Shown here piece after piece: positions 293-2,898 of a DNA stretch of 61,328 bases (positions are counted from its first letter, which is position 1; every line of letters begins with the position of its first letter). The translations under genes were made by a program, and so were the position numbers. The notes below the pieces were generated by a model, which worked only from the letters and a program-made list of their open reading frames with translations, had not been told where the DNA came from and searched no databases. This stretch comes from Acidobacteriota bacterium (GTDB taxonomy: Bacteria; Acidobacteriota; Terriglobia; Bryobacterales; Bryobacteraceae). Location: assembly GCA_025353165.1 (NCBI GenBank), contig JANXRE010000062.1:1-61328 (forward strand), written 5' to 3'.

Positions 293-328
293 AATGTCCC
301 CTATATTCCCTCGTTAGAAGTGTCCCCT
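293..328 (+). repeat. IS left inverted repeat
   Basis: It begins AATGTCCCC, contains CCCTCGTTAGAA and closes with GTGTCCCCT. It pairs with 1675-1709 with one indel and a few mismatches. The paired ATGTCCCC boxes look like transposase-binding sites. The transposase stop codon lies inside it. Confidence 0.75.
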
Positions 329-1646
329 TCGTTTGACTACTGGTCCGGTCCGCGCGCCTGCCGCCACCGGCGGACGCCTGGCCGTCATCTCCCGATAGCT
401 CTGCTTCCACGGGTGGCTGGTCGTCGGCGGTGTTCCGCCGTAGGGCCGCGTCTTCTTCTTCTCTGCCGTTGGGGGTTGCGGCTTGCCCGCCAGTTCTTCC
501 CAAGCCACCTTCTGTCCGCGGTACCGGATCTCCAGCCGCCCGTCCTCCCACTCACACACCACCACCTTCGATTTCGCCGGTGCGTACTGTCGGCCTCCTC
601 GCTTCACCTGGAAGTAACGGTTCTCATACCGCACCACCCAGTCGTTTCCGATCACTCTCTCATTCTCCAAACGGAACACTTCATCCATCTCCACCCGGCT
701 CGGCTTGGCCCGATGGTCGTCTCCCGCCGCAGCCGCCGCGCAACTGAATCGCCGGTTGTGCTCCGGCAAGTACTCCTTCTCCAGAAACTCATTGGCCGCC
801 TCGTAGGCCTGGATTTTCTTCCGCCTCAGCTTCTTCACCAGCCGGTCCTGGTGCGTGCCGTGGTTGCGCTCCACTCGCCCTTTCGCCTCCGGCGAATTGG
901 CGGTGATAATCCGAATCCCCAGCCGCTCACACATCTGCCCGAACTGCGTCCTGGGCACTTCGCCCCGCAGCTTTTGCTGCTCGCTCGGCTCCTTGGCGTA
1001 CACCGCCTTCCAGTCCGTGTACAAGGCCAGCGGAACGCCATACTTCTCGATCCAGATCCGCAGCACTCCCGCCGCCGCCCAGATCGTCTCCTGCTTCCCC
1101 ATCCGCCCCAGCGGGGTGCCCGTCGCATCGTCCACCATGCCCATCAGGCAGCCCTTCGGCCCGCGCTTTTCGAACCACTGGTGAAAGCTCCCATCCATCT
1201 GCACCAGCTCTCCCCGGTGCTCCCTCCTGTCCCGCCGCTGCCGGTGCTCTCGCCTGCGCCGCGCCCGGCTCCACAAGTCCCGCCGCCAGCATCCATCGCC
1301 GCAGCGTCTCCGGATGCACCTCCAGCTGGTCCTCGCTGGCCAAATGCTCGGCCGCCAGCGTCGGCCCAAACCGCTCCCCTATCGCGCCGGAGTATTTCTT
1401 CGCTACCAGCCTCAGCACTCGCTGCTTGAGTTTCTCCGGCTGGGCCCGGTTAGACGGCTTGCCGGCACTCCCATGCTGCAGTCCCTTGGCGCCATCCGTC
1501 CGATACCGGCGCCACAGTCGCTTGGTCTGCCGGTAACTCAACCCCATCAATTGCGCGGCATCCCCAAGCTTCAGCTCTTCGCTCTCCACTCGCGCCAGCG
1601 CTCCCACTCGTCTCAACTCGATCTCGCTCATCAATGTCCTTCTCAC
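314..1646 (-). pseudogene. Frameshifted DDE transposase of the IS
   Basis: The N-terminal frame (from 1646, or the internal ATG at 1631) encodes a helix-turn-helix segment including LMGLSYRQTKRLWRRY and ends its homology at RRWMLAAGL. The DDE catalytic part continues in another frame: QMDGSFHQWFEKRG (first Asp), ALYTDWKAVY (second Asp) and SPEAKGRVERNHGTHQDR (Glu). The switch falls at about 1272-1278, where the minus strand reads CTTGTGGAGC; dropping one T restores LAAGLWSR. A single-base insertion or sequencing error is the simplest reading. Programmed frameshifting is possible, but no standard slippery heptamer is present. The C-terminal frame stops at 314. Confidence 0.75.
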
Positions 1647-1674
1647 CCAAACCTCCTTCGGAGGTCTTCAGATT

Positions 1675-1709
1675 AGGGGACATTTCTAACGAGGGCACAA
1701 GGGGACATT
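1675..1709 (-). repeat. IS right inverted repeat
   Basis: Read on the minus strand it is AATGTCCCC, then TTGTG, CCCTCGTTAGAA and ATGTCCCCT, matching the left repeat at 293-328. It lies upstream of the transposase start and probably carries the promoter. Confidence 0.75.
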
Positions 1710-1733: not shown

Positions 1734-2315
1734 TTAGCTCGCCAGTTGAAGCTGCCTCCGCCGGACCGATTCCCGCACCATGGTCAGGATCAGACGCCGC
1801 ACGCCGCGATCCCAGTCCGGGAACAAGTCCACATACTGGACCCGGCTGGCTACCGGTCGCGGAACTTCGCAATCGTCGAGCCTCGCCGGCAGGATGAACA
1901 TGTCCTCCAGCGGCATCTTCGTCGCGCAGTCCAGGGCATACCGCAGTTCGCTATGGAAAGCGCCCCGTTTGGTCACCGCCCTTTTGGAAAAGCAGGGGAC
2001 GAAGAAGTCGGCGATTTCGATGGCCCGCTGGATGGAACGCGGCCAGTTCTGGCCCGGAAATAGCTGTTCTTTATCCAACCAGGGCTGCAATCCCGCCTCT
2101 TCGAACGCGCGGTACAGCCGTCGGGCCGGTTCCAGATTCTCCTGGACATAGGCGATGAAGACCCGGGGCCGAAGGCTGGCGACGAATTCGAACTTGCCAC
2201 CGGCGCGGGGGTGGAAGACACCCAGGCCGTCGATCTCGATGACGTGCCCTTCGGCGAGGGCCGCCCGGATGATCTGGGCGATCCGGCGGTCTGAGCACAG
2301 GGGATTGCGGCTCAT
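1734..2315 (-). CDS. HU-like/TIR domain fusion protein
   Basis: 193 residues. Residues about 10-45 look like part of an HU/IHF fold (RIAQIIRAALAEGHVIEI, then GLGVF at 30-34). Residues about 50-165 form a TIR domain: RVFIAY strand, LQPWLDKEQLFPGQNW loop, RSIQRAIEIADFFVPCFS, then HSELRYALD with Glu123 at the position of the catalytic glutamate of NAD-consuming TIR domains, and ILPARLDD. TIR domains of this sort cleave NAD+ or signal in bacterial immunity; activity here is inference. Its start overlaps the stop of the upstream HU-like gene by 4 nt, so the two are translationally coupled. It lies next to the insertion sequence. Confidence 0.75.
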   Translation of the reverse strand: MSRNPLCSDRRIAQIIRAALAEGHVIEIDGLGVFHPRAGGKFEFVASLRPRVFIAYVQENLEPARRLYRAFEEAGLQPWLDKEQLFPGQNWPRSIQRAIEIADFFVPCFSKRAVTKRGAFHSELRYALDCATKMPLEDMFILPARLDDCEVPRPVASRVQYVDLFPDWDRGVRRLILTMVRESVRRRQLQLAS

Positions 2316-2506
2316 GACTTCCCGCTCATTGGGTTCGTTTCGTTTTTCTGGGGCGCCAGCTCCCCCAGGCCGGGAAGGGTCGTGCGCTTGCCGCGTTTGA
2401 GCTTACGGATGAGGTCGTGAACCACCCGGTCCAGCCGGTCGGCGGCTTCCGCGGGCGAGGTTCGTGTCTCTTTGGCAATTTGTCGGGCGAGGTCGTCGCG
2501 TTTCAT
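2312..2506 (-). CDS. Small HU-like DNA-binding protein
   Basis: 64 residues from the ATG at 2506, preceded by an AGGCGG ribosome site; the open frame upstream of it is not HU-like. MKRDDLARQIAKET, AADRLDRVVHDLIRKLKRG and TLPGLGEL match the helix-turn-helix and first strand of HU/IHF proteins. The usual DNA-embracing beta-arm is missing, so it is shorter than classical HU (about 90). ATGA overlap with the downstream HU-TIR gene suggests the two products act together, perhaps as a heterodimer through their HU folds (inference). Confidence 0.7.
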   Translation of the reverse strand: MKRDDLARQIAKETRTSPAEAADRLDRVVHDLIRKLKRGKRTTLPGLGELAPQKNETNPMSGKS

Positions 2507-2751
2507 TCCGCCTAATGATACCCGGTGGTCGGCTTCATTTAGACTGCGCGGGATGCCGGCTACGGGGCAGGCGTGAGCACAAGTGCCAATCCAGCAATGA
2601 CTTACGCCAGCTCTTTGGCGACTGCGAAACCGTGTCACCGGCCTCCGGAATGAAGCGATTTTAATAGGCTCTTAAGGCGGCATTCATGTCGCCCTGTGAC
2701 TATAGGAGCGTAGACGATCTGATCGTCACAGTCCGCAAGGAGAATCCCATA

Positions 2752-2898
2752 ATGAAGAAAATCATGTCCGTTATGCTTGGCCTGAGCCTGATCCTCGGCA
2801 CCGCGTCCCTGTTTGCGCAGGACAAGACCGACGCTCCGAAGGAAAAGAAGGCCAAGAAGGCCAAGAAGGCCAAGAAGACCACCGAAGAGAAGAAGTAG
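2752..2898 (+). CDS. Lysine-rich secreted small peptide
   Basis: 48 residues. The ATG at 2752 follows AAGGAG at 2739-2744. The first 22 residues (MKKIMSVMLGLSLILG, then TASLFAQ) are a clear Sec signal peptide. The mature part, about 26 residues, is strongly basic: KEKKAKKAKKAKKTTEEKK, encoded by an in-frame tandem repeat of AAGGCCAAG. A strong hairpin terminator follows at 2928, so this is a single-gene transcript. Function unknown; a periplasmic polyanion-binding role is only a guess from composition. Confidence 0.7.
   Translation: MKKIMSVMLGLSLILGTASLFAQDKTDAPKEKKAKKAKKAKKTTEEKK

Follow-up and report, generated by a model that had tools for sequence, protein, structure and literature searches.

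In bacteria, TIR enzymes are known chiefly as anti-phage effectors of scattered occurrence. The described systems closest to the locus reported here are SPARTA, which is defined by an APAZ domain and a short Argonaute partner, and Thoeris, which is defined by a constant ThsA-type partner. In SPARTA, self-association of the TIRs is followed by activity, and the catalytic mutant used for the Maribacter TIR-APAZ is E77A (PMC10474274). The families to be compared on the HU side are bacterial HU/IHF (PF00216) and the HU-CCDC81 and HU-HIG clades (PF18175 and PF18291). The HU clades were reportedly treated by Burroughs et al. in 2017 in Cell Cycle, a paper that PMC8195603 cites.

The window (the whole stretch of DNA that was analysed, 61,328 nucleotides) carries two overlapping ORFs on its minus strand, 2312-2506 (64 aa) followed by 1734-2315 (193 aa). 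The positions and the 4-nt overlap at 2312-2315 that an earlier note on this DNA had given were confirmed. The features of the locus are the following:

2312..2506, minus strand: small HU-like gene, 64 aa and stop (Pfam PF00216; family profile against HU structures; low-confidence model)
1734..2315, minus strand: HU-TIR gene, coding for 193 aa and ending with its stop (at E <= 1e-40, 185 of 237 genomes of the family have a match; AF2 mean pLDDT 90.1)
2178..2300, minus strand: half-HU domain of HU-TIR, approximately residues 6-46 (hhalign against small HU; model)
1788..2162, minus strand: TIR domain, residues 52-176 (PF13676, 87 bits; VIA Z 17.7 to SPARTA TIR 8ifl_A)
1947..1949, minus strand: codon of the catalytic-type Glu123 (computed from residue numbering; column on Glu77 of 8z92_E by count)
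2312..2315, minus strand: stop/start overlap of 4 nt, ATGA (ORF coordinates)

The distance from small HU to HU-TIR ranged from -38 to +19 in 79 other loci, with -8 and -4 as the commonest values, and it leans small because the start codon nearest the HU stop was chosen. The locus is a tightly coupled two-gene unit with the small gene first, which is a layout of the toxin-antitoxin type.

In both fold and sequence, the TIR of HU-TIR is closest to the TIR-APAZ of SPARTA, and it has the NADase Glu. However, HU-TIR lacks the two elements that define SPARTA: it has no APAZ, since it ends 17 residues after the TIR match without a further Pfam domain, and its constant partner is an HU protein and not an Argonaute. 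Also unlike SPARTA, the pair is near-core in one family. As in Thoeris, a small TIR protein lies in a two-gene unit, and ThsB models weakly matched 10 of the 29 HU-TIR members (best E 4.3e-7), but the constant partner is small HU instead of a ThsA-type protein, and ThsA was not among the neighbour families listed (PADLOC, 303 ORFs). The small HU shares helices 1-2 and the first strands with bacterial HU/IHF, whereas the arm motif was absent from all 78 small HU proteins, the window's included. The similarity to the HU-CCDC81/HU-HIG clades consists of a PF18175 score of 28.2 bits for small HU and of PF18175 matches in 37 of 78 HU-TIR proteins; on the other hand, the score stays below the Pfam cut-off of 35 bits, and here the HU is both paired with and fused to a TIR. 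The earlier note knew of no described system with this pair, and indeed none was found in PADLOC (HU-TIR), NCBIfam (both proteins), Pfam or open-licence PMC full text; the TIR-domain passages of PMC9503650 carry no HU term. What is new is the family-wide distribution and a TIR module with a new partner, an armless HU.

The TIR domain

The complete TIR_2 model (PF13676, positions 1-122 of 122) aligned to residues 52-176 of HU-TIR with 87 bits. The window genome contains 10 TIR_2 matches including HU-TIR, of which nine are above the cut-off. Over the whole domain, the best structural match was the SPARTA TIR 8ifl_A (VIA Z 17.7, rmsd 1.9, 129 residues), and TIR matches led to SPARTA TIR-APAZ by sequence profile as well as by fold (PADLOC, PDB profile, Foldseek and VIA). 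The PADLOC TIR-APAZ models matched all 29 HU-TIR members with a best E of 3e-24, and the best E in the PDB profile search was 1e-8. SARM1 and adaptor TIRs were not far behind SPARTA, with MyD88 and MAL at Z 16.1.

Position 123 is Glu in 134 of 135 distinct HU-TIR homologues and Asp in one (L116), so the catalytic glutamate of TIR domain NADases is present. By count in the printed alignment, its column is that of Glu77 of CrtTIR-APAZ (8z92_E), which would be the same column as Glu77 of the Maribacter TIR-APAZ. Furthermore, W79, D81, W91 and G32 are invariant in the 135 distinct homologues, and G88 and S110 in 78 HU-TIR proteins. The complete domain and the nearly invariant Glu agree with the earlier note, which had proposed a TIR domain with Glu123 as the likely catalytic residue. 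The note had also let its reading depend on a structure model of the TIR, and in the structure comparison the overall fold matched NADase TIRs. From the fold and the Glu, it is likely that the TIR of HU-TIR is an NAD+-processing enzyme.

The small HU protein and the half-HU of HU-TIR

Of the 90 positions in the PF00216 model, the small HU of the window aligned to 1-55 with 28.3 bits (cut-off 22.4); the protein thus stops at the beginning of the DNA-binding arm. Among HU structures, the family profile was closest to 1hue (E 1.8e-10, positions 1-62). The protein comprises helices 1-2 and strands 1-2, and both the DNA-binding arm and the third helix are missing. The structure model has low confidence (pLDDT 63, pTM 0.35) and contains helices at 2-14 and 18-37 and strands at 42-44 and 48-50, in the order helix-helix-strand-strand. 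Its best structural match was the HU chain 4p3v (rmsd 2.8, 56 residues) with a VIA Z of 6.1, which is unconvincing alone because values below 8 are weak by themselves. Together, the curated cut-off and the helix-helix-strand order place the small HU in the HU/IHF superfamily, though without the DNA-binding beta-arm, and the earlier note was right to describe it as an HU relative lacking this arm. The PF18175 (HU-CCDC81_bac_2) score is level with that of PF00216, but by the curated cut-off the protein falls outside the HU-CCDC81_bac_2 clade. A turn pattern failed in 18 of the 135 distinct small HU proteins; by eye, 11 of these are near-variants and seven are without the turn. In those seven loci, small HU is in essence helices 1-2 and HU-TIR is still whole; no other part of the small HU thus persists as widely as these two helices. 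Three other near-full-length HU matches occur in the window genome, and the small HU is therefore not its sole HU.

The N-terminus of HU-TIR contains one helix and a three-stranded meander, and helix 1 and the arm of HU are missing. In the AF2 model made from 78 sequences (mean pLDDT 90.1), a helix at 5-21 and strands at 26-28, 32-36 and 42-46 precede the TIR domain. Taken alone, the N-terminus of the window protein gave a weak match to PF18175 (E 0.18), and this protein is not among the 37 HU-TIR proteins that matched HU-CCDC81_bac_2 at E <= 0.05. By comparing the N-terminal columns of 78 HU-TIR proteins with 78 small HU proteins in hhalign, a match with 97% probability (E 4.5e-11) was obtained in which helix 2 and the strands were aligned, while the TIR control gave 0.5%. 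Since the TIR fills the structural match list, the half-HU fold rests on this profile comparison and on the AF2 secondary structure. The profile comparison confirmed the HU-like N-terminus claimed by the earlier note as homologous to the HU superfamily, and at the level of sequence profiles the small HU and the half-HU share their origin. The mean net charge of the small HU was +7.2 and that of the HU-TIR C-terminal tail +3.5 (78 proteins each). The basic tails of both proteins may leave nucleic-acid binding possible without the arm.

Pairing and spread across the family

The first set combined the genome of the window with 60 relatives, and 35 of these 61 genomes matched. Near-full-length HU-TIR was identified in 29 of the 37 genomes of the host family, with pieces on two contigs in one further genome, and the HU part was found in none of the 24 genomes of other families. 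From 29 stretches drawn from 29 other genomes, one truncated locus (L059 of G010) was left out, and small HU lay directly upstream of HU-TIR in 28 of the 28 that remained. From the named genome contigs, 80 of 109 relatives were retained after a pattern scan; their titles were Bryobacterales, Bryobacteraceae, Solibacter, Sulfopaludibacter, Terriglobia, Acidobacteria and the like. Two exceptions, titled Acidimicrobiia and Bordetella, look like mislabelled MAGs. The small HU was present in 79 of these 80 loci, and in the exception the contig starts 114 bases before the match. After pooling with 100 more stretches and two others, the pair was found in 210 of 211 loci (135 distinct), and the sole failure is cut by a contig end. 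These locus sets overlap (many genomes occur in two collections), and 27 of the first loci had served to build the HU profile. The co-occurrence and adjacency of the genes, which the earlier note had named as a check, held in all three sets, and they support a conserved two-gene HU/HU-TIR unit.

At E <= 1e-40, HU-TIR matched 185 of 237 family genomes with one match per genome; it was present in 121 of 148 good-quality family genomes and in 63 of 76 genera. The small HU was found in 179 of the 237 genomes (E <= 1e-8). Counted per genome, 177 had both, eight HU-TIR only, two small HU only and 50 neither. One of the HU-TIR-only genomes, G425, matched at E 1.6e-42. TIR-only matches from beyond the family reach 9.1e-43 at best, so the G425 match does not exceed them and may be something other than an HU-TIR. 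In two others (G382 and G394), the small upstream gene keeps the HU helices and has lost the turn. No HU-TIR score was obtained in 27 of the 148 good-quality family genomes, for example G027 and G399, nor in G012 of the first set. HU-TIR can therefore be lost or was missed in these genomes, which suggests scattered losses or assembly gaps. Across the phylum, 297 genomes gave 10 matches at E <= 1e-20. Three of them, in the family, were near whole length; the seven outside it covered the TIR only, from model position 37, and the HU part was not found in them. No relative was confirmed in the viral contigs or phages searched. Nine plasmids had matches starting from residue 37 or later, and none of these covers 80% of HU-TIR. 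The pair is a near-core, single-copy unit of one family, mostly Bryobacterales in the named records.

Genomic surroundings

An insertion sequence occupies window positions 299-1704, with 30-nt inverted ends (299-328 and 1675-1704) that are 83% complementary, and it ends 29 nt past the HU-TIR stop codon. The HTH-type N-terminus and a second frame suggest that its transposase is frameshifted or broken. The earlier note had taken this neighbour as a sign of an accessory locus. The insertion sequence is real, as the inverted ends show, but family-wide conservation of the pair (210 of 211 loci; HU-TIR in 185 of 237 genomes) led us to reject the accessory reading. In the window, the pair is adjoined by genes for a 2-hydroxyacid dehydrogenase and a sigma factor, and further ORFs are presumably HslUV, AroA and PqqC/E, as recognised by eye.

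The uvrC gene was located downstream of the pair in 16 of the 29 comparative loci, at a distance of 3.6-4.7 kb in three, and tightly downstream, beyond a TPR-protein gene, in 26 of 76 named loci, whose genomes overlap with the 29-locus set. A convergent TPR-protein gene was observed between the pair and uvrC in 17 of the 29 comparative and 31 of the 76 named loci. Because of this convergent gene, an operon with uvrC was rejected, and the association is one of shared position. The uvrC of the window genome is on another contig (G000:C156:2276-4054; L060, L062), beside a TPR gene and without HU-TIR, and its match contains one internal TGA. Four loci (L043 of G002, L044 of G021, L046 of G036 and L048 of G030) have a different upstream neighbourhood, with ORFs at similar offsets, some of them probably antisense. 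This shared neighbourhood means that there is at least one further stable chromosomal setting for the pair.

The neighbour set contained 303 ORFs from the 80 named loci, called with a codon-score gene caller (at least 90 aa, within 3 kb) that misses short genes and that yielded none at two loci (L095 and L096). In PADLOC at E <= 1e-10, no recurrent defence family was present among those listed (the best 25 of 40 and the best 25 of 29), the maximum being three of 123, two of 119 and one of 61 neighbours. The matches were kinase-type in three of 123 and LmuA-type in two of 119 neighbours, with single TIR-APAZ, ZorB, Avs1a and other matches among the 119, and with single DruE, BrxHI, DpdF, DpdJ, DrmA and other matches among the 61. 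A defence neighbour may thus occur occasionally. The commonest Pfam neighbour was UvrC (11 of 119 ORFs scanned out of the 303; best 25 of 76 families), and the others among these best 25 were mostly metabolic and transport families. One of the 119 ORFs (set A4, loci L092-L127) matched the Pfam domain of TcA that binds TcB of the Tc toxin. Neither the recurrent defence neighbourhood nor the patchy taxonomic spread of an island-borne anti-phage system was found.

Two candidate control elements upstream of the small HU were rejected. SOS control was one of them, as three LexA-type box patterns occurred within 160 nt upstream of the small HU in only one, none and one of the 135 loci. The other is a 38-nt element with dyad ends at window 2650-2687 on the minus strand, ATGAA-N6-CTTAA-N6-ATTAAAAT-N3-TTCAT, which was recognised in 63 of 135 distinct loci at a score of at least 18 out of 23 fixed positions (15 being the most reached after shuffling) and is single-copy in the window genome at up to three mismatches. 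A divergent gene at window 2752-2898 on the plus strand encodes a short, Lys-rich, exported-looking protein. This gene was present in 43 of 43 loci with the element versus three of 45 without it, by a profile that was seeded from element-bearing loci. In 32 genomes, 12 element matches were detected in 11, and three of them lie away from HU-TIR (L291 of G019, L297 of G001 and L290 of G003). One of the three is beside the Lys-rich gene; the other two are weaker and lie upstream of ORFs that are alike and secreted-looking by eye, hinting at a small regulon. As an operator of the pair, the element was rejected because it accompanies the Lys-rich gene, also away from HU-TIR in one genome, and it is therefore not counted as part of the HU/HU-TIR unit.

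Inheritance and selection

With UvrC as the single marker, Mantel tests on 26 genomes gave r 0.51 (P 0.0005) for HU-TIR and r 0.34 (P 0.0075) for the small HU, and the distances of the two proteins correlated with each other at r 0.72. In the 15 closest locus pairs, which are not independent, dN/dS ranged from 0.08 to 0.30 in HU-TIR and from 0.09 to 0.32 in the small HU. Both genes are under purifying selection in these close pairs, and the module is apparently vertically inherited and lineage-specific.

Proposed mechanism and alternatives

We hypothesize, with a confidence that falls somewhat short of an even chance, that the pair is an inherited two-gene TIR module in which an HU heterodimer controls an NAD+-cleaving TIR in an endogenous or innate role. 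From the strict pairing, the correlated divergence and the retained dimer-forming helices, the simplest reading is that the two HU parts complete one HU-type dimer. The small HU would supply helices 1 and 2, and the half-HU of HU-TIR would complete the heterodimer. This heterodimer could hold the TIRs apart, or it could cluster them once a cellular target is engaged; such a target would be a protein, or DNA contacted by the basic tails. Because TIR self-association leads to activity in SPARTA, control through an HU dimer that keeps TIRs apart or gathers them is plausible. Once clustered, the TIRs would use the Glu123 chemistry to cleave NAD+, as SPARTA and SARM1 do, and the outcome would be a slowed or dead cell, or a signal. 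We infer that a phage-specific cue is a less probable trigger than a general or endogenous state (stress on the chromosome or on NAD, or a broad role in innate immunity), because the pair is near-core and not island-borne. The pair may have a core role in innate immunity. The foreign-DNA sensor suggested in the earlier note is a candidate reading, and neither HU part has the classical arm for binding DNA.

The evidence on contact between the HU parts is divided. The small HU distances correlated with those of the TIR part at 0.69 and with those of the half-HU at 0.64 (partial 0.38 given TIR), which is slightly against contact. In a mean-field analysis of inter-protein couplings (135 pairs, Meff 109), the half-HU received five of the top 10 couplings (P 0.052), and the share of strong ones was 1.7% there versus 1.4% in the TIR. 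In favour of half-HU contact, these couplings are only suggestive. A bolder idea, which we put forward as a doubtful conjecture, is that an armless HU heterodimer of one whole and one half HU was converted from a DNA packer to the gate for the TIR NADase and forms, in most of the family, a near-core checkpoint from chromosome or nucleoid state to NAD+ and cell fate.

The earlier note had proposed a defence module, and we now regard anti-phage abortive infection as rather unlikely. In such a system, the HU pair would sense phage or plasmid DNA or nucleoid damage, and the TIR would deplete NAD+ or make a cADPR-type signal. The closest TIRs do belong to known defence systems (TIR-APAZ models on 29 of 29 members, best E 3e-24; SPARTA Z 17.7), and an overlapping two-gene layout is usual for abortive-infection-type defence systems. 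However, the pair is near-core and single-copy and tracks UvrC, both genes are under purifying selection, UvrC is the commonest Pfam neighbour with no recurrent defence neighbour among the families listed, and relatives were not found in the phages and viral contigs searched, while plasmids gave TIR-part matches only. The same distribution bears on a toxin-antitoxin-like module, in which the small HU would be an antitoxin or chaperone that occupies the half-HU and whose loss frees the TIR. We consider this unlikely, as addiction modules are rarely near-core and single-copy and no relative was seen on phages, nor one covering 80% on plasmids, although the small gene comes first, the overlaps are short and the pairing is strict. 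Moreover, seven of 135 loci keep helices 1-2 of the small HU with a whole HU-TIR, as expected if partner binding is kept.

A non-enzymatic function appears improbable. The TIR would then act as a scaffold, for oligomerisation or NAD binding, within a regulatory protein derived from HU; many TIRs serve as adaptors, and one homologue (L116) has Asp at the Glu position. Against it, Glu is retained in 134 of 135 homologues with W79, D81 and W91 invariant, and active NADases lead the fold matches, though MyD88 and MAL are close (Z 16.1).

Significance

Should the proposed HU heterodimer gate a TIR NADase, it would represent a principle of TIR control for which we found no description. If the HU pair controls the TIR, nucleoid-protein architecture would be linked to NAD+ destruction or signalling, and the pair, with just two proteins, would be a simple system in which to study how TIRs are restrained and triggered. 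HU-TIR is a near-core, apparently vertically inherited TIR that is tied to an armless HU at every uncut locus examined. This cautions that not every bacterial TIR gene is an accessory defence gene. The side-by-side occurrence of the pair in most of a single soil-bacterial family is more suggestive of a built-in switch than of a defence gene in passing.
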